Below, piece by piece: positions 4,825-58,071 of a stretch of DNA of 64,000 nt. Source of the DNA: Paludibacteraceae bacterium (GTDB taxonomy: Bacteria > Bacteroidota > Bacteroidia > Bacteroidales > Paludibacteraceae). The DNA lies in the NCBI GenBank assembly GCA_017461505.1, contig JAFTXV010000007.1, positions 558,001 through 622,000 on the forward strand, given 5' to 3'. The notes under the pieces were generated by a model. That model was not told the DNA's origin. It worked only from the letters and a program-made list of their open reading frames with translations, and searched no databases. Position numbers and translations under genes: made by a program. Positions within the stretch are counted from its first letter, which is position 1; each line of letters starts with the position of its first letter.

Positions 4825-5601
4825 TCACAATTTTATAACAAAAAGTGCTTTTGCATTGGCTGTTGTTACCTCATTTACATGCTCTACGGAGCATTGATAT
4901 ACCTCGGCTAAACGCTCCACAACATGCCACATCCACTTGCTCTCATTGCGTTTACCACGGTGTGGAACTGGTGCCATGTAAGGAGCATCCGTCTCCAGTA
5001 TCAACCGCTCTAGAGGAATACCTACCAAGTGCTCAGCCAACTTGCAGTTTTTGAAAGTCAGCACGCCACCAATACCCAAATAATACCCCATGTCAACGAC
5101 CTGCTTTGCCACTTCGTGACTACCACTAAAACAATGCATTACTCCCTTCACAGTCGGAAACTCTCGCAAGATGTTCAGCGTATCTTCAGTCGCATCGCGA
5201 CTATGAATCATCACTGGCAAATGCCATTGCTCTGCCCATCGCATTTGTTCACGTAATGCCTCATGTTGCTGCTCCTTGAAACTCACGTCCCAATGATAGT
5301 CCAAGCCTATTTCTCCTGTGGCTATCAGGGGATTAGAAGAACTCATTCGCTGATCTACTGCTTCTTTCAGCACACGTAACTGTTCCTTCCAATCCTCCTT
5401 CACATTCTCTGGGTGCAAACCCAATGCAGGAAATAAATATTTTGGAAAACGGTCACAAACCTCTAGCACATCCTTTACTGATGTGGCATCCACTCCAGGC
5501 ACCAAGATGGCTTCTACACCGTCTTCTCGTTGCTCTATCAAGAACGCTTCTAGTCCTTCTGCGTACTGTGGATCATCTATATGACAATGAGTATCGATCA
5601 T
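4825..5601 (-). CDS. tatD: TatD family metal-dependent hydrolase (DNase)
   Basis: A 258-residue TIM-barrel amidohydrolase of the TatD family, expected to act as a metal-dependent 3'-5' exonuclease or hydrolase in the cytoplasm. Metal ligands are visible: IDTHCHID at the N-terminus (HxH), the conserved Glu in ATGEIGLDYHWD, VMIHSRDA, GVMHCFSGS and the final Asp in LILETDAPYMAP. The start is the ATG of MIDTHCH at 5601. The longer open frame would add 24 residues that overlap queA and do not belong to the family. It is the last gene of the panD-tgt-queA operon, 22 bp after queA. Confidence 0.92.
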   Translation of the reverse strand: MIDTHCHIDDPQYAEGLEAFLIEQREDGVEAILVPGVDATSVKDVLEVCDRFPKYLFPALGLHPENVKEDWKEQLRVLKEAVDQRMSSSNPLIATGEIGLDYHWDVSFKEQQHEALREQMRWAEQWHLPVMIHSRDATEDTLNILREFPTVKGVMHCFSGSHEVAKQVVDMGYYLGIGGVLTFKNCKLAEHLVGIPLERLILETDAPYMAPVPHRGKRNESKWMWHVVERLAEVYQCSVEHVNEVTTANAKALFVIKL

Positions 5602-5623
5602 TTGAGGGTTTAAAATATCAAGT

Positions 5624-6904
5624 TTATAGTTCAAAGGCAGGGCTCCTACGGAACAATATACTGCTATCGCCATAGCTTAAAAAGCGAAAGTCATTTGCCA
5701 AAGCGTAATCATAAATCCTATGCCAATCACCACCTACGAACGCACTCACTAGCAAGAGTAATGTAGATTTGGGTTGGTGGAAATTGGTGATCAATTGATC
5801 TACCACATGGAAGGTATATCCTGGTTTGATCATAATCTGCGTTTCAGCGTGCAATACCTCTTCACCTATTTGCTCCAGATGATCTACAATCGCTTGCAAT
5901 GCCTCTTGCGTGGATAACGCATGATCCTTCTCGTATGGCTCAAATTGTGCGACGGATAGTGTGGAATCTACGGCGTCCGGAATCCGGTTTCTGGTACACC
6001 ACTTTTCCCCAAGGAAATACAAACTCTCCAAGGTTCGCATACTAGTTGTTCCTACTGCCACGATATGTCCAAGGTTCTCAATAATAGTTTGAATTGTCGC
6101 TTTTGGCACAGCGATAATCTCCGTGTGCATCGTATGTTGATTGGCATCTGCTACCTTCACAGGTTGGAAAGTGCCTGCACCTACATGCAATGTTACTTCT
6201 GCCGTCTTCACTCCTCGCTCACGCAACCCATTCAGCACGTTGTCCGTGAAGTGCAGACCTGCCGTCGGAGCTGCTACAGAACCTTTTATTCTCGAATAAA
6301 CTGTTTGATAGGTGGTTTTGTCGCTCTCTTCCGTCTTGCGATTCAGATAGGGTGGAATAGGCAACTCGCCCACAGCATCCAATATCTCCGCAAAACTCAC
6401 CGAAGCACCTTCCCAAGAAAATCTAACGGAGAAAGTATTGCCCGTCTGTTCGCCTTTCTCTGCCCATAGTCTCACTTCTTTTCCAGATGGCAATATCACT
6501 GGCTGCGACAGCGCGCCTGATTTCCATTTCTTGGCATTGCCAATCATACATTTCCACGTACAGCCTTCCGTACTTCCCAATGACAGCTCATAATCATGTG
6601 GCTCCAATGGCTCGAGACAGAAGATTTCAATACGTGCACCTCTCGCCTTATCGCCTATTAGCCTTATCGCCTCATCACCTGCCTCCTTGTGGAATTCCAA
6701 TCGGGCTTGTATTACGCGCGTATTATTATATATAAGGAGTGAATCTGCAGGCAGATACTCGCCCACGCGATAGAACTTATCTTCGCTCACCTCTCCTTCG
6801 CGATACACCAATAGCTTGCTCTGGTCACGCTCTGCCAGAGGATATTTGGCAATGCGCTCATCGGGCAAAGGGTAATTATATTCTTCTATAAGGATTTCTT
6901 CCAT
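5624..6904 (-). CDS. queA: QueA, S-adenosylmethionine:tRNA ribosyltransferase-isomerase
   Basis: A 426-residue enzyme that transfers the ribosyl moiety of SAM to preQ1 in tRNA to make epoxyqueuosine. Family hallmarks are visible: NNTRVIQARL (61-69), SVAAPTAGLHFT, VTLHVGAGTFQPV, HTMHTEI, VAVGTTSMRTLES, TNFHQPKSTLLLLVSAF and the C-terminal RFLSYGDSSIL. The segment between ARLEFHK and RIEIF (about residues 74-90) is 13 residues longer than in E. coli QueA. It is encoded by a heptamer-type repeat (6635-6685) also found elsewhere in this window. The start overlaps the 3' end of rlmL by 19 bases. It functions with tgt in the same operon. Confidence 0.95.
   Translation of the reverse strand: MEEILIEEYNYPLPDERIAKYPLAERDQSKLLVYREGEVSEDKFYRVGEYLPADSLLIYNNTRVIQARLEFHKEAGDEAIRLIGDKARGARIEIFCLEPLEPHDYELSLGSTEGCTWKCMIGNAKKWKSGALSQPVILPSGKEVRLWAEKGEQTGNTFSVRFSWEGASVSFAEILDAVGELPIPPYLNRKTEESDKTTYQTVYSRIKGSVAAPTAGLHFTDNVLNGLRERGVKTAEVTLHVGAGTFQPVKVADANQHTMHTEIIAVPKATIQTIIENLGHIVAVGTTSMRTLESLYFLGEKWCTRNRIPDAVDSTLSVAQFEPYEKDHALSTQEALQAIVDHLEQIGEEVLHAETQIMIKPGYTFHVVDQLITNFHQPKSTLLLLVSAFVGGDWHRIYDYALANDFRFLSYGDSSILFRRSPAFEL
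6635..6685 (-). repeat. In-frame AGGCGAK heptamer repeat inside queA
   Basis: On the minus strand this stretch consists of degenerate GGCGATR/GGCGAGA units, for example GATGAGGCGATAAGGC and GGCGATAAGGCGAGAGG. It encodes the peptide AGDEAIRLIGDKARG in QueA. The same units recur at 59195-59222 (intergenic) and 61973-62010 (inside the RepA-like ATPase, where they also encode GDEAIR). Confidence 0.7.
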
Positions 6905-42258: not shown

Positions 42259-42300
42259 GTAAAAAATCATATAAACTAGGTACGAAAAAATAATATGTAT

Positions 42301-44526
42301 ATGAAACGTGGAATATTGATACTATTATCGGTGCTTTTATCTTTTGCTTTTGCACCTTTGGAGAGTTGGATAGTAGAGGGTGCTTCCTCTGCTGTATCGG
42401 CAGCCCCAGTTCAGAAGAAAGCAGCTCAGAAGAAAGCAGCTCAGAAGAAAGCAGCTCAGAAGAAAGCAGCTCAGAAGAAGGCTGCTCAGAAGAAGGCTGC
42501 TCAGAAGAAAGCTGCACAAAAGAAAGCTGCACAAAAGAAAGCTGCACAAAAGAAAACTGCACAGAAGAATGTAGCGTCAAAGAAGACTACCATTGCTCAG
42601 AAGTCGTCCGCATCCAAGCGCGCTGCCACTCCGCAAAAACCCGTTTTGACTCCAGCTCAAGAAGCGGCTGCATATCAAGCACGTGTGGCTGAAGTGGAGG
42701 CACACAACAAGCGTGTAGCCGCCTATCAAACGCGCGATATTGCTCATCGTCTTGGCTTGTGGGGAGGAGTAGGCTATTCGGCTATCTTTCCGTCGAATTT
42801 TGTGAGTGATGCATTGGCTCCAAATGCCGTTGGTGGAGTAGGAGGCGGCGTAGGTTTGGGGTATCAATTACGCTACAAGAAGTTCTTGTTGACAACAGGT
42901 GTAGAGTTTCAATCGTATAACTCGCTAACTCGCTTGACTGCTCCGATACAGTCATTTGGCGTACAAGAATATGCGACGATGCAATACCACTATTTGTTTA
43001 CCGATATGCAAGACCAGTGGAACACGGGTTATGTGCAGATTCCTCTGCTTGTGGGTATGGAATTGCCCCAGTGGTATTGGCAGGTGGGTGCAAAAGTGGG
43101 TATGAATGTATATACCACATCGGCTATACAAACCTCATTGACCACTTCAATCACTGACCAAGAGTTGATTGATGATTTGGTGAACATGCAGAATCACCAA
43201 TTGGCAACCTCCACTTACGAGATGCAAGATCCTATTGCTCTGCAGCTTAACCCTAATGTGGCACTTGCCGCGGAGGTGGGTATGTCGCTGGATAAATGGT
43301 TGAGGCCTACCGTGAAGAGAGGTCGCCGTATGTCGCCAATGCAGAAGTTTGCGACGAGTTTACACTATCAATTGGCTTTGTTTGCCGAGTATGGACTGAT
43401 GAATATATATAATTCTGCTTTAGCAGAAGGGCACACGAATGCTATTCCTGCAGATTTTAGCAGTGTGCTTGGGAAGTCTGTCGATACTCCGTTGGCATAT
43501 ACGTCTTCATTGCAGACATCATCGGCTGCAAAAGCGTCGTTGAATCCATTCTTAGTAGGGGTGAAATTGGCTGTTATGTATGAGTTGCCTCGTCAAGATA
43601 AAAAGATGTTGCCCATCCCATTGGAGCCAAAACCTCGTTTAGTGACTAAGGTGACGAATGCGGAGACGGGTCTCGCTTTGGGTAGTGCACAAGTGACGAT
43701 TGAAAATATCCAAACGGGTGCTGTGGTGAATAGCACATCCAATAGCAAGGGTGTGGTCATGGCGCGTTTTTCTAAAGCAGATTATCGTATATCGGCATCT
43801 AAGTTGGGTTATCTGCCATGCGATACTATCACATGGTCGCATATGGCAGACTTGAGTGATACCGTTCGTTTTGCACTGGTTCCAGAGCCTAAACCAATAG
43901 TTTATACCTTGTGTGGCTATGTGCTGGATAAAGCAAATGCTCAGCCGCTTGAGGCTGAACTACGTGTAGTAGGTGCGCAAGATCAAACTCCACTCTACAA
44001 TGGTGCAACCAATGAAGAGGGATTATTTGTGTCGAATCTATTGGCAGGAACTTATACGATATATGCTAATAGCATAGGTTATTTGCCATTGGATACTATG
44101 GTGCAATTTGACAAAGATACCCTGTATTTACCACTCGAACCAATCAAAGAGGGTATAAAGGTGAAGATTAATCACTTGTATTTTGCTACCAATAAGACCG
44201 TTATTTTGCCAGAGTCGGAGGAGGCTCTCAACGATTTAGCCAAGTTCTTGCGTGAGAATCCTACCGTGTCTATCCGCATCATAGGTCATACGGATAATGT
44301 GGGCTCTGATGCCGACAATATGCGTTTGTCAATGGGACGTTCTAAAGCGGTGCGCACTGACTTAGTAATGCGTGGAATAGATGCTAGTCGCATTGAGGCG
44401 ATTGGTATGGGCGAGACGGCTCCAATCGCTACTAATGATACAGAAGAAGGACGTGCTCAGAACCGCCGTGTAGAATTTGAAATTACTGATACACAAGGTA
44501 GTGATATTCAACAGATATACGAATAA
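42301..44526 (+). CDS. OmpA-family outer-membrane protein with KKAAQ repeat, barrel and peptidoglycan-binding domain
   Basis: A protein of about 741 residues in this order: signal peptide (MKRGILILLSVLLSFAFA; an ATG two codons earlier is possible); a Lys/Ala/Gln linker at about 38-87 of ten QKKAA units; a barrel at about 140-440 paralogous to the previous gene; two carboxypeptidase-regulatory-like domains near 444 and 534 (TNAETGLALGSAQVTI; LDKANAQPLEAELRVVG); and an OmpA C-terminal domain at about 622-735. The OmpA domain has IRIIGHTDNVGSDADNMRLS and NRRVEFEI, which bind peptidoglycan. It probably ties the outer membrane to the cell wall. The very basic linker could bind acidic polymers (inference). 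Operon partners are a barrel and two T9SS-secreted proteins. Confidence 0.85.
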   Translation: MKRGILILLSVLLSFAFAPLESWIVEGASSAVSAAPVQKKAAQKKAAQKKAAQKKAAQKKAAQKKAAQKKAAQKKAAQKKAAQKKTAQKNVASKKTTIAQKSSASKRAATPQKPVLTPAQEAAAYQARVAEVEAHNKRVAAYQTRDIAHRLGLWGGVGYSAIFPSNFVSDALAPNAVGGVGGGVGLGYQLRYKKFLLTTGVEFQSYNSLTRLTAPIQSFGVQEYATMQYHYLFTDMQDQWNTGYVQIPLLVGMELPQWYWQVGAKVGMNVYTTSAIQTSLTTSITDQELIDDLVNMQNHQLATSTYEMQDPIALQLNPNVALAAEVGMSLDKWLRPTVKRGRRMSPMQKFATSLHYQLALFAEYGLMNIYNSALAEGHTNAIPADFSSVLGKSVDTPLAYTSSLQTSSAAKASLNPFLVGVKLAVMYELPRQDKKMLPIPLEPKPRLVTKVTNAETGLALGSAQVTIENIQTGAVVNSTSNSKGVVMARFSKADYRISASKLGYLPCDTITWSHMADLSDTVRFALVPEPKPIVYTLCGYVLDKANAQPLEAELRVVGAQDQTPLYNGATNEEGLFVSNLLAGTYTIYANSIGYLPLDTMVQFDKDTLYLPLEPIKEGIKVKINHLYFATNKTVILPESEEALNDLAKFLRENPTVSIRIIGHTDNVGSDADNMRLSMGRSKAVRTDLVMRGIDASRIEAIGMGETAPIATNDTEEGRAQNRRVEFEITDTQGSDIQQIYE
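42412..42561 (+). repeat. Ten 15-bp coding repeats (QKKAA)
   Basis: Ten units of the form CARAARAARGCWGCW encode Gln-Lys-Lys-Ala-Ala (the last Lys-Lys-Thr-Ala). Units 1-4 are identical in DNA; later units drift only at synonymous sites, so the array grew by recent duplication. A change in copy number keeps the frame. Confidence 0.95.
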
Positions 44527-52565: not shown

Positions 52566-52570
52566 TACCC

Positions 52571-52605
52571 GAAGGCTGCCCAACGGCAGCCTTCGTTGTG
52601 TTATA
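52571..52605 (+). terminator. Terminator of the ATPase gene
   Basis: A 10-bp perfect stem GAAGGCTGCC/GGCAGCCTTC with loop CAAC is followed by GTTGTGTTAT. It is nearly identical to the hairpin after SusD. Confidence 0.8.
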
Positions 52606-52629
52606 GAGTCTATCGAACGGGGGGGATAG

Positions 52630-52647
52630 ATATGTTGTACAACATAT
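52630..52647. promoter_or_regulatory. 18-bp perfect palindrome upstream of the SusC promoter
   Basis: ATATGTTGTACAACATAT lies 26 bp upstream of the -33 element. A perfect palindrome of this size at this place is a candidate operator for a dimeric regulator of the SusC/SusD locus (inference). Confidence 0.6.
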
Positions 52648-52673: not shown

Positions 52674-52703
52674 TTGTTATGTAAAAAAAAATAAGTAACT
52701 TTG
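52674..52703 (+). promoter_or_regulatory. Fixed promoter of the SusC/SusD locus
   Basis: TTG (52674-52676), 19 bp, TAACTTTG (52696-52703), directed rightward. It lies outside the invertible segment, about 37 bp left of its first inverted repeat. It therefore fires in both orientations but yields an intact SusC message only in the ON state. Confidence 0.8.
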
Positions 52704-52739: not shown

Positions 52740-52756
52740 AATTGTACCGTTTGATG
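52740..52756 (+). repeat. Left inverted repeat of the SusC switch
   Basis: AATTGTACCGTTTGATG. Its reverse complement CATCAAACGGTACAATT matches the right arm in 16 of 17 bases, with 13 contiguous. Confidence 0.92.
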
Positions 52757-52925
52757 TGCCAGCTTCTGCAACGCTAGCGCCAACGAGAGGTTCACCATTA
52801 GCATCCACCACTTTACCTACAATAGCAATAGGTTCTGCCATAGCAGCGATGCTAACCAACGACATTGCAAATACTGCAAATGTCATGAGTAGGCTACGAA
52901 AGCCATTCTCTTTGTGTTTGTTCAT
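52740..52925 (-). CDS. SusC N-terminal fragment (signal peptide and start of regulatory domain), inverted
   Basis: Sixty-two codons from ATG at 52925 (an adjacent in-frame ATG at 52928 is also possible). Signal peptide: MNKHKENGFRSLLMTFAVFA followed by MSLVSIAAMA. It is followed by PIAIVGKVVDANGEPLVGAS, the first strands of the carboxypeptidase-regulatory-like domain that opens every SusC. The family always continues with a (G/D)TxxGTxTDxDGxF motif. Here the frame leaves the inverted repeat after TSNGTI and soon stops at 52734, so the piece is incomplete. The missing part is on the plus strand from 53015. In the present orientation no promoter pointing left was found to its right. Confidence 0.92.
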
Positions 52926-53014
52926 CATAACGTTTGTGTTTTGGTTAATAATGTGTGGGAATTTCACCCACGTTGTTTATATTGTTGTTGATTGTTTTGG
53001 GTCAATTTTGGTAG

Positions 53015-53031
53015 CATCAAACGGTACGATT
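53015..53031 (+). repeat. Right inverted repeat of the SusC switch
   Basis: CATCAAACGGTACGATT, the partner of the left arm; one mismatch (G for A at position 14). It encodes SNGTI within the regulatory domain. Confidence 0.92.
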
Positions 53032-56000
53032 ACTGATTTGGATGGTGCATTCGTGCTGACCGTAGAGAAGAACGTAACTCTCCTCGTATCCTACGTAGGT
53101 TACAAGGATCAAGAGGTTCGCGCTCACAAAGACATGGTTGTTATGCTCCGCGAGGACACTCAAGTGCTCGACGAGGTAGTAGCCATCGGTTATGGTACGC
53201 AAAAGAAGGCGAACCTGACAGGTGCGGTGACAACCGTAGATGTTTCTAAAACTTTGGAATCAAAAACCGAGTCTGATGTGGCAAAAGCATTGCAAGGTGC
53301 TGTGCCTGGTTTGACCATCACCAATGCAACGGGTGATTTGGATGCTGATCCTACCGTCGTTATCCGTGGTATCGGTACTTTGTCAAACAGCGGTACTTCT
53401 ACTCCTCTCTACGTAGTGGATGGTGTACCTATGGAGAACCTCAGTTATCTTAACCCTAATGACATTGAGTCTATTAGCGTATTGAAAGATGCTTCTTCTA
53501 CCGCTATCTATGGTACTCGTGCTGCTTTTGGTGTGGTATTGGTAACCACCAAGACTGCTAAGACGGCAGAGAAAGTGAGCGTTACTTATAACAACAACTT
53601 CGCTTGGAGTCGTGCTACTGCAACTCCTGATTACCCAACCGTATATGCTCAAGCTGTGGCTGCAACAGAAGCTAAGGGATATCTTGGTGAGCGTGCTGAA
53701 CTCTTTGGTATGTATTTGGATGATATGCCAGTTCCTGTTACAAATGATAAAGGTGAGGTAATTGGTTATGAGGACAGTTTCCAAGACAAAGCGGCAGCTT
53801 GGTTAGAAAGACATGGTGGCAAAGCTGGTTATCGCGAAATGGTGTATGGTGATGACTTTGATGAGTATGGATTCTATGCTGATTGGGATGTGGCAGGTAT
53901 CTTCTTCAACGATGCAACTCCTTCACAAAACCACAACCTCTCTGTATCGGGTAACTCAGGTAAGACCAACTACTATATGTCACTCGGCTATAACCACCAA
54001 CAAGGTATATTGAACTTCAATCCTGACAAGATGGATAAGTTCAACGCAACTGTTAACCTCTCTACCAAAGTTAACAACTGGTTGGAAGTAGGTGCTCGCT
54101 TCAACATGCAACACCGCAACTATCAATATCCAGAGAACCGTGTAGGTGGCTATTCTAACCTTTGGCGTTGGGGCTCATTCTTTGGTCCTTGGGGCTATTT
54201 TAAAGATCCTGAAGGTCAAGTGTATGATGGTTATACTTTCCTAGGTGGTTTGAAAGAAGCTGGCGACGCTTACAAAAAACGTATGAACTTGCGTGCTGGT
54301 GGTTTTATCAAGTTGAACCTTGCTAAAGGCTTAACCTTTAATGGTGATTATACCTTTACCTACCGAGCAGGTAAAGAGAAGGCTATCGGTATGCCTGCTA
54401 AATATCAAGTGGACACATGGTCTCTTAGCTTATTTACGGAAGATTGGTGGAATGGTGCGATAGCTCCATATCCAACAGATAGTTATATTACTCAAAAGAA
54501 CTCTCATTACTACAACCACGTAGCCAATATGTATTTCAACTACAATGGTTCTTGGAGTGGTCACAACCTCAATGTAATGGTAGGTGCGAATATCGACAAA
54601 GACGAGTACGAGTATCTGACTCTCACCCGCAACAACATGCAGAATGTGAATATGCCTGAGATGATTCTTACCTCTGCATATAAGAGCTATGATCAAGCGC
54701 ATTATCACAATGGTTCTGTGGGTATCTTCGGTCGTATCAATTACGATTATAAAGGCATCTATTTGTTAGAGTTCAGTGCTCGCGGTGATGCATCTAGCAA
54801 GTTCCCAAGCAACCAACAATGGGGCTTCTTCCCTTCAGGATCTGTAGGTTATCGTATCAGCGAGGAGCCATACTTCCAAGAAGCTAAGAACTATGTAAGC
54901 AACTTAAAGGTACGTGCTTCTTATGGTACTATTGGTAACCAAGAGATTGGTAGCAATATGTTCTTGGAGACAATGGATAAATATACCACTTCAGTAAACT
55001 GGATTGGTAGTGGCAATGTGTTGTATGACTATTTTGAACAACCTAAGATGGTATCTCCATACCTTACTTGGGAGACAATTGCTACGGCTAACGTGGGTAT
55101 TGACCTCGGTTTCTTCAACAACGACTTGAATATCAACTTCGACTGGTATCAACGCGATACAAAGGATATGTTGGCTCCAGGTAAAGAGTTGCCTACTGTA
55201 CTTGGTACTTCTGCTGCATTTGAGAATGCAGGTTCTCTCCGTACACGTGGTTGGGAGTTGAATATCGACTGGCGTCACGTATTCCACGAGGCAGGTGACT
55301 TGGCTGTACATGCTAATTTCAACTTGGCAGACTACAAAGCTACGATTACCAACTGGGATTCTAACAACCTTATCAATACCAACTACACTGGTAAAGAGTA
55401 TGGTGAAATCTGGGGCTTTGAGTATGACCGTTATTTCACTCCAGAGGATTTCAATGCAGATGGTACATATGCTGAAGGTATTGCAGATCAAACTCTACTT
55501 GCAGTTGATCCTAAATTTGCTTTTGGTCCTGGTGATATCAAGTTCGTTGACCAAGATGGTGACGGCGAGATCAATTGGGGTGAGGGTACAGTAGAGGATC
55601 ACGGTGACCTCATAAAGATTGGTAACACCACTCCTCGTTGGCAATACTCATTCCGTCTTGGCGCTGATTGGAAGGGCTTTGACTTCGACATCTTCTTCCA
55701 AGGCGTAGGTAAACGCGATATGTGGAGCACATCTGCCTTCGTGATGCCAATGATGCGTGCTGCCGATATTACTATTTATGCTAATCAAACGGATTATATT
55801 ACTAAGGAAGAAATCGAGGCGGGTAACATCCGTCAAGATGCTGACTATCCACGTATCTTCCCAGGTAATGAGGGTGCTACAGCTTCTTCTGCTATCATGG
55901 ACGCAGGTCGCAACAACTATGTGCCACAAGATAGATACCTCATCAATATGGCTTATCTCCGTCTGAAGAACTTGACCGTAGGTTACACCTTGCCACAAAA

Positions 56001-56205
56001 GTGGACTCGCAAGGCAACCATCGAGAAAGTGCGTATCTACGCTTCATTCAACAACTTGGCTGACCTCGTAAATCATACCGCTCAATACGGCTTCGATCCT
56101 GAGGTTTCAAGAGGTAAAGAGGCTGCTAACTATGGCTATGGAGCATACGCTCGCACCACGCCTCTCATGCGTTCGTATTCATTCGGTTTGCAAGTAACAC
56201 TATAA
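53015..56205 (+). CDS. SusC/RagA-type TonB-linked outer-membrane receptor, body without its own start (OFF state)
   Basis: From 53032 the frame encodes 1,057 residues. It holds the rest of the carboxypeptidase-regulatory-like domain (TDLDGAFVLTVEKN, LLVSYVGYKDQEV), the SusC signature DEVVAIGYGTQKK, and the plug domain (VVIRGIGTLSNSGTSTPLYV, DGVPMENL, NDIESISVLKDASSTAIYG). The barrel ends in YSFGLQVTL, with the terminal aromatic/hydrophobic pattern of outer-membrane barrels. With the inverted 62 codons the ON protein would be 1,119 residues, normal for SusC. It would take up a glycan or peptide with its SusD partner; the substrate is unknown because no enzyme gene is adjacent. The plus-strand frame stays open leftward through the inverted segment to 52756, but that part is antisense of the true N-terminus. 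Confidence 0.93.
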
Positions 56206-56277: not shown

Positions 56278-57972
56278 ATGAAAAAGATATTTTTAAGTTT
56301 GATGGCTGGTATGGCGCTCTTCACAAGTTGCGACTTGTTGAACAATGACCCATACGACACATTTACCAAAGAAAACTTCTTTGCCAATGAGACCAATGTA
56401 GAAATGTATTGCAACTATTTCTATAGCGAATGGAAAGGTTATGGTAATAATGGTACTTACGGCGTATTCTATTTCCCTACTTTGAACGATAACCAAGCTG
56501 TAACGGGTATTACTCCATGGGATTTCAAGAATGTATCTGCTACGGATGCTACATGGGACGCATCTTATGAAGAGGTACGCCGTGCTAACATCTTGCTAGA
56601 GCATATTAATGAAGCTGACTTGACGGATGAAAGCCGTGCATATTACACATCGCTTGGATGCCTCTATCGTGGTTGGCAACACTTCTGCGTGGTTCGCAAG
56701 TTTGGTGATTGCTACTGGGTAAACAAAGAGTTGACCGTGGACGATGCTACAATCCTCTATGGCAAACGTCATGACCGCAATCTCGTGATGGATAATGTTC
56801 TCGCAGATATCAATTATGCTGTAGCTAATATGGGTGATATGTATGCTGATTCTCGTACAGCTTACAACGTACACGTAGCCAACGCTATTAAGGCACAAGT
56901 ATGCTTGTTCGAGGGTACTTATGCTAAATATCACAAGAATGATGCAGCACGTGCTGAGAAGTACTTGAAAGAGGCTAAAAAAGCTGCTGAAGCTATCATG
57001 GGTAACGAGATGTTTGCGCTCACCCCAGGTGCTGAGGGTTATCGTGCTAACTACAACTCCCTTGACCTTGCTGGCAACACCGAGATGATCATGTACAAGA
57101 AGTATCTGGAAGAAGCTAAACTTCGCCATGCTACTCAAGACTACTGCTGCGGTTCTACTCCTACCAACGGTATGAGCAAATCTGCGTTCAATGCATATTT
57201 GATGAAGGATGGAACTCTTCCAACTCCAGGTTCTGACAAGGGTGTACTTGGTACCGATGGTTATGATAAAGGTAAACCAGTTATCTACGCTCTTCTTGAA
57301 GCTCGTGACCCACGTTTGGCTGAGCAAATCGACGGCTATCTCTGCTACGTAGGTAACAACCGCGCTCGTTATGAGGGTGTTCCTGGACAAGAAGGAGCTG
57401 CTGAGAATACGGTTACTACTGGTTACGGTATCTTGAAGTTCGATGAGCCAGAAACTCCTGCTTCATTGCGTCAATCTACTAATGGTAACGTAACCGACTG
57501 CCCAATCTTCTGGTTGGCTGAAGTAATCCTTAACCACGCAGAGGCATGTGCTGAATTAGGTTTGGATGCAGAGGCAACCGCTTCTATCAATAAGCTTCGC
57601 GCTCGTGCTGGTATGCCTAACCTTGTGTTGCAAGGCGACCCAGCTAATAATATGGGCGTTAGTGACTTGATTTGGGAGGTTCGTCGTGAGCGTCGCGTAG
57701 AGTTGATGTTTGACAACAACGACCGCTACTGGTCACTTATCCGTTGGCACCAGTTGGATAAACTAGATACCAAGCAGTATCCAGATCAAACTAAGGGTGC
57801 TTGGATTGATGCTTCATGGCCAGGTGCTAACCAAGTGAAGCTCGATGCTGAGGGATATATTGATCTTAATGATACGTATGTTCGTGAGTTCGATGATAAG
57901 CATTACCTCGCTCCTATCCCATCTGGTCAAATCTCATTGAATGCAGAGATTGGTCAAAACCCAGGTTGGTAA
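56278..57972 (+). CDS. SusD/RagB-like nutrient-binding lipoprotein
   Basis: A 564-residue surface lipoprotein that closes over the SusC barrel and binds its ligand. The start at 56278 gives the lipoprotein signal MKKIFLSLMAGMALFTSC with lipobox LFTSC; an ATG four codons upstream is less likely. Family features include NNDPYDTFTKENFF, a TPR-like helical core (about 70-250), WLAEVILNHAEACAEL, INKLRARAGMP and the C-terminal VRRERRVELMFDNNDRYWSLIRWHQL and APIPSGQISLNAEIGQNPGW. Its expression depends on transcription through SusC, so it may still be transcribed in the OFF state unless polarity intervenes. Confidence 0.93.
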   Translation: MKKIFLSLMAGMALFTSCDLLNNDPYDTFTKENFFANETNVEMYCNYFYSEWKGYGNNGTYGVFYFPTLNDNQAVTGITPWDFKNVSATDATWDASYEEVRRANILLEHINEADLTDESRAYYTSLGCLYRGWQHFCVVRKFGDCYWVNKELTVDDATILYGKRHDRNLVMDNVLADINYAVANMGDMYADSRTAYNVHVANAIKAQVCLFEGTYAKYHKNDAARAEKYLKEAKKAAEAIMGNEMFALTPGAEGYRANYNSLDLAGNTEMIMYKKYLEEAKLRHATQDYCCGSTPTNGMSKSAFNAYLMKDGTLPTPGSDKGVLGTDGYDKGKPVIYALLEARDPRLAEQIDGYLCYVGNNRARYEGVPGQEGAAENTVTTGYGILKFDEPETPASLRQSTNGNVTDCPIFWLAEVILNHAEACAELGLDAEATASINKLRARAGMPNLVLQGDPANNMGVSDLIWEVRRERRVELMFDNNDRYWSLIRWHQLDKLDTKQYPDQTKGAWIDASWPGANQVKLDAEGYIDLNDTYVREFDDKHYLAPIPSGQISLNAEIGQNPGW

Positions 57973-58030: not shown

Positions 58031-58071
58031 GAAGGCTGCCCAACGGGCAGCCTTCGTTGTGTTATTTTATC
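58031..58071 (+). terminator. Terminator of the SusC/SusD operon
   Basis: An 11-bp stem GAAGGCTGCCC/GGGCAGCCTTC with loop AAC is followed by GTTGTGTTATTTTAT. The stretch from here to 58173 has no gene, only GCC-rich inverted motifs (e.g. TATAGCCC, CCTATAGG). Confidence 0.85.

Follow-up and report, generated by a model that had tools for sequence, protein, structure and literature searches.

A susC gene that begins on one strand and continues on the other raises the question of whether the reversed piece belongs to a reversible switch, is the remnant of a one-off rearrangement or is an artefact of assembly. The gene lies in a metagenome-assembled genome of 1.74 Mb (22 contigs, 82% complete), on a 659-kb contig from which the window, i.e. 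the whole stretch of 64,000 nucleotides analysed in this study, was taken. The closest relatives with named records are metagenome-assembled genomes of Paludibacteraceae and Bacteroidales, several of them from the gut of water buffalo or water deer.

Organization of the susC locus

Analysis of the window revealed that a 292-bp segment (52740-53031) carries the susC start codon, the signal peptide and the first ~60 codons on the minus strand, and that the remainder of susC is on the plus strand. The reversed coding part (52740-52928, minus) covers the start, the signal peptide and the opening portion of the N-terminal domain. As read from the sequence, it opens with an ATG at 52926-52928 that is followed by a second ATG at 52923-52925, both on the minus strand. 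The untranslated leader is reversed as well (52929-53014, minus) and contains a GTGGGTGAAATTCCCAC hairpin at about 52955-52971. The susC body (53020-56205, plus) contains the rest of the N-terminal domain, the TonB plug and the barrel (TIGR04056, PF07715 and PF00593). Its score against TIGR04056, the family of SusC/RagA outer-membrane proteins, is 812.8 bits at a cut-off of 368.25, which places it in this family; the nearest solved relatives, by sequence, are SusC homologs and RagA. A susD gene with an ATG start follows at 56278-57972 (plus; PF07980 and PF14322). Only one susC is present at the locus, and the next one on the contig (C4:627406-630633) starts 16.4 kb downstream.

A terminator-like hairpin at 52570-52595 (plus) separates the upstream ATPase gene from the susC promoter-like site, and near-identical terminator-like hairpins (97% over 35 nt) flank the susC-susD pair at 52571-52604 and 58031-58065. 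Elsewhere in the window, an OmpA-like protein (42295-44526) has a run of KKAAQ repeats close to its N-terminus.

Comparison with related susC genes

The window was compared with six related SusC sequences, whose proteins are 75-85% identical and which come from four genomes (G119, G058, the C6 and C7 copies of G014 and the A and B copies of G038). In all six the alignment was split in two between the strands: one part, on the minus strand, stopped at 52740-52741, and the other, on the plus strand, began at 53009-53020. Since the relatives break at the repeats, the segment is inverted with respect to its counterparts in the relatives and is bounded by the repeats. The original prediction had assigned the SusC start and signal peptide to the minus strand and the rest to the plus strand, and the relatives divide the gene at the same place. 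It had also stated that flipping would join the two halves in frame as a protein of 1,119 residues. Turning the segment round in silico indeed gave an open susC frame, of 1,120 amino acids from the first ATG and 1,119 from the second, and the score of the CarboxypepD_reg-like domain rose from 37.3 bits (profile positions 25-87) as sequenced to 63.2 bits (1-87).

A genus-wide search of 178 genomes, with up to four candidates scored in each, identified at least 15 matches at E <= 1e-250 in 12 genomes, the window included. Among the 14 other matches listed, the start and signal peptide were on the strand of the body in all 12 homologs whose N-terminus was read; G174 (reported open frame of 1,127 amino acids) and G038:C27, which is cut by a contig end, were left out of this reading. 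N-termini were likewise intact in the five other full-length SusC genes of the same genome (a weak partial match, C18:70948, is not among them). When this genome was queried with the locus, a single copy was found, and a single orientation is seen. Overall, comparison with the relatives supports the view that the sequenced copy is in the inverted, non-ancestral orientation.

The inverted repeat at the breaks

The left arm AATTGTACCGTTTGATG (52740-52756, plus) and the right arm CATCAAACGGTACGATT (53015-53031, plus) form an inverted repeat of 17 nt with one mismatch (16/17), as originally described, and lie 258 nt apart; the right arm is within the susC coding sequence, at residues S-N-G-T-I. 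No other pair of 17 nt in the 64 kb has one mismatch or none at a spacing of 40-1500 nt. Such a repeat is not rare somewhere in 64 kb, as 10 first-order simulations gave 0-2 each; an equally good repeat in two 37-nt stretches at the same spacing appeared in 5 of 20,000 random draws.

When up to two mismatches are allowed, 14 places in the genome carry the repeat motif and 4 carry its reversed control, and besides the two arms none of these places has an inverted partner (up to three mismatches, within 1.5 kb). A short inverted repeat joining the gene start to its own leader was found in none of the nine homologs and two own-genome paralogs scanned, a scan from which L038-L040 were left out and in which both G014 copies offer only 214 nt upstream. 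The sole exception is the long inverted arms common to two G038 genes. The search of related genomes proposed in the original prediction, for an intact SusC together with the two repeats, found the ordinary gene order (12 of 12 read) and not the repeat (0 of 9 homologs scanned).

Selection on the two gene halves

The 1,061 codons of the body contain no stop and no frameshift. Its dN/dS values between the window and its three nearest relatives were 0.103/0.915 (G014_C6), 0.097/1.084 (G058) and 0.097/0.906 (G038A), and the pairs among G014_C6, G058 and G038A gave similar values of 0.052/0.843, 0.103/0.832 and 0.101/1.088. For the first 62 residues, comparison with G014_C6 gave 0.043/0.349. From these values, both halves of the gene look to be under selection as coding sequence. 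A gene showing no decay in this way suggests that the inversion is either recent or reversible.

Promoter-like site, leader and upstream open frame

A promoter-like site, TTG-N19-TAACTTTG (52674-52703, plus; TTG at 52674-52676 and TAACTTTG at 52696-52703), is located outside the segment, to the left of the left repeat. TAnnTTTG is the -7 consensus of Bacteroides, according to an excerpt of PMC4747536, and the site was assigned by its match to the consensus alone; the fixed promoter of the original prediction, with its TTG and 19-bp spacer, is thus present as a promoter-like site. It is the sole Bacteroides-type promoter-like site noted, so that none was placed within the inverted segment as in an invertible promoter, and no inverted repeat of 11 nt or more was found around it in the window. 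Just 5' of it, at 52619-52647, are a run of seven G and a palindrome, ATATGTTGTACAACATAT; a similar palindrome occurs in G119.

The sequenced copy had been described as OFF. That description stands for the normal start and export of SusC, which should stop, and does not extend to transcription: as the promoter-like site remains directed towards the body and susD, and the frame is open to GTG 52756, the flip would not necessarily stop it. The leader hairpin GTGGGTGAAATTCCCAC is whole in four of the six relatives and is cut by the contig end in both G014 copies. In the sequenced orientation it also scored as terminator-like on the plus strand (52953-52973), one of three such sites in 1 kb where 0.9 are expected, and by analogy with the proposal for cwpV it could lower transcription into the body and susD. 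Folding the RNA of the sequenced orientation gave a z of -2.36, a result that adds little because the repeat arms pair by construction.

As sequenced, the plus-strand frame is open from GTG 52756 to 56205 (1,149 amino acids) and can also be read from ATG 52885, after which basic and then hydrophobic residues follow; the asparagine codon at 53020 is preceded by 107 open codons. In five of seven relatives or paralogs this frame has no stop across the antisense of the coding part, and in two of seven it has none across the whole reversed segment. The openness of the antisense coding part therefore needs no selection, and the open frame upstream of the body is probably incidental. Selected dual coding of the reversed frame, considered as a candidate, was unsupported for the same reason.

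Invertases and recombination of susC starts

Two Mpi-family invertases are encoded in the genome (C13:31500 and C9:26537), both above the NCBIfam cut-off of NF009949 ('master DNA invertase Mpi family'), along with a resolvase-type gene (C19) and a tyrosine recombinase (C4:162751). No invertase gene was found beside this susC within the window. The first of the two invertases (G000:C13:31500; L086 18495-19109) is 35 nt from a contig end, and several homologs elsewhere are also at contig ends.

Recombinases were found next to related genes. An Mpi-type serine recombinase adjoins susC in G058, and its homologs (E <= 1e-60) are present in 107 of the 178 genomes of the genus. At the G038 locus a serine recombinase, also above the NF009949 cut-off, lies between two divergent susC/susD pairs with inverted arms of 881 nt (91%) and is flanked by an inverted pair, AATCGGTCGTTT / AATCGGTCGTTA. 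This locus (G038:C1; L056 6433-17914) resembles a Hin-like switch that selects one or the other of two SusC/SusD systems. G119 (L065 about 5421-5640, SUXC01000014.1) has a promoter-like site 5' of susC between the arms of a 12-nt inverted repeat, CGTTTGTTTGAC, the left arm of which overlaps AATCGGTCGTTT; the site is a candidate invertible promoter.

Analysis of AATCGGTCGTTT in five genomes found the exact form twice, both times 5' of related susC genes (G119:C12 and G038:C1). With up to one mismatch allowed, 65 places matched it and 90 matched the reversed control, so that it is not enriched, and the strict form of the site was present in one of 32 invertase stretches scanned, namely the G038 locus. 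The window arm can be written AATCG-TAC-CGTTT and the relatives' site AATCG-GT-CGTTT: the half-sites are alike, and the spacer is 3 nt in the window vs 2 nt in the relatives. A three-base spacer should be unacceptable to a serine invertase that crosses over at two bases. The resemblance of the window arm to AATCGGTCGTTT is a lead only.

Paralog pairs in the lineage differ far less over the first 62 codons than over the body, with dS values of 0.046 vs 0.81 in G038 and 0.024 vs 0.73 in G014. Such near-identical starts on diverged bodies show that the start stretch of susC recombines in this lineage. Within the window's own genome, the paralog C16:54172 (L021/L022, G000:C4 and C16) is 80% identical to the window gene at the DNA level across the start region and only 52% identical at the protein level over the next 199 residues, a contrast that is another hint of exchanged susC starts. 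The contigs G014:C6 and C7 (L035 and L046) end 214 nt upstream of the same susC codon in near-identical sequence, as expected if a common inverted module broke the assembly.

A probable reversible switch and its rivals

The best reading of the locus, and in our judgement a probable one, is that the 292-bp invertible segment between the fixed promoter and the susC body is a reversible switch. It is the Mpi-family invertases of the genome, together with an invertase or a repeat-flanked promoter-like site at related susC loci, that make this the best reading; both the reversibility of the segment and the acting enzyme are what we infer. In the orientation of the relatives, presumably ON, the promoter would be followed by the leader, the start and the signal peptide and would yield full-length SusC. 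In the sequenced orientation the start, the signal peptide and the first ~60 codons would read backwards and no normally exported SusC would be made, while the promoter would remain aimed at the body and susD, and transcription of susD would presumably continue. Site-specific recombination between the 17-bp repeats would toggle the two orientations, the likeliest candidate enzyme being an Mpi-family serine invertase acting in trans.

An extension of this reading is that the switch acts on translation and export with the operon still transcribed, so that flipped cells would make the SusD surface binding lipoprotein without the SusC channel. We regard this as doubtful; if true, glycan capture would be split from import in part of the population.

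The serious rival is a one-off inversion between short repeats, e.g. by template switching in replication or repair, after which the gene would be silent, would decay and would not flip back. The misfit of the 3-nt repeat spacer with the 2-nt spacer of the relatives' site and the lack of site enrichment over the control give this copying-error account its weight. It is also consistent with a repeat that, among the loci scanned, only this genome has, with the lack of a recombinase tied to the repeat or of an adjacent invertase in the window, and with the single orientation known from one assembled genome. The intact body argues against it, dN/dS being unraised at dS of about 0.9-1.1, and an undamaged body means that a one-off inversion would have to be recent; the lineage, moreover, has invertases and recombining susC starts. 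Taken together, such an event is possible though rather unlikely.

Assembly or chimeric-read error, by which the segment would have been reversed while living cells have an ordinary intact susC, was considered as the first explanation and then demoted to a minor rival, given the short repeat and a break that matches in six sequences from four genomes. The source is one metagenome-assembled genome, 82% complete, and every relative read has the ordinary order, both of which suit an error. Assemblers usually use words longer than 17 nt. With a repeat below the usual word size, an error would require two false junctions in a 659-kb contig, and we consider it improbable. Least credible, and very improbable, are alternative N-termini in place of ON/OFF control, in which translation from GTG 52756 or ATG 52885 would supply a different hydrophobic N-terminus: the 107 open codons and the residues after ATG 52885 fit such a product, but the antisense is commonly stop-free in the relatives or paralogs, as counted above, and the N-terminal domain would be left incomplete at 37.3 vs 63.2 bits.

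Returning to the reversible switch, if the segment flips, an uncultured gut lineage would have a compact switch that turns the start codon and export signal and leaves the promoter in place, and one transporter could go off while its partner gene stays transcribed. Gene finders would label such loci as truncated or as having a false start, which provides a simple mark by which further examples could be found.

Comparison with known inversion systems

The systems below are compared as they appear in excerpts of the cited papers. Within these portions of the literature on inversion switches and SusC, no description of this locus or of the single-gene layout was found, and absence from print is not claimed. 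Inversion of SusC/SusD genes in Bacteroidales and intragenic inversions are known, in agreement with the original prediction (PMC5729914, PMC4747536, PMC12632263, PMC12548429). Phase variation is reviewed in PMC11868660, and PMC5903667 is a further source. In IBD cohorts, differences in orientation were seen for invertible regions located in or close to SusC/SusD genes (PMC10939037), and 952 of the 1,837 invertons of one defined community intersect coding sequence, those of Bacteroidota being mostly intergenic (PMC11892184).

In the susC/susD shufflons of Bacteroides fragilis (region EE; Tsr0667) the inverted repeats overlap the susC start codons (PMC5729914, PMC4747536), and the present locus shares with them the SusC/SusD genes and repeats over the susC start region. 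Unlike those shufflons, where large segments bring alternative genes behind an invertible promoter (PMC5729914, PMC4747536), a 292-bp piece of one gene is here reversed behind a fixed promoter-like site, and with one susC at the locus there is no exchange of several susC genes by inversion. The cwpV switch of Clostridioides difficile has its promoter fixed upstream of a short inverted segment without coding sequence, and a terminator is proposed for its OFF state (PMC2784873). The promoter-like site, identified by consensus only, is likewise outside and upstream of the segment in our locus, whereas the start codon and signal peptide are within it. With the Mpi/Tsr invertible promoters the locus has in common its Bacteroidales host, a surface gene and the presence of Mpi-family serine invertases (PMC4747536); it differs from them in having its promoter-like site outside the segment and a repeat that is at most a putative Mpi site.

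The intragenic invertons are comparable in that one repeat arm is within coding sequence and inversion alters the product (PMC12632263, PMC12548429; within-gene inversions in Bacteroidales are cited in both, the paper cited there being Chanin 2024). Both orientations are seen in reads for those invertons, whereas one assembled orientation is known here. As far as these excerpts go, within-gene inversions, susC shufflons overlapping the start and fixed-promoter switches are each known, and the combination of them in a single gene at this locus is a variant.
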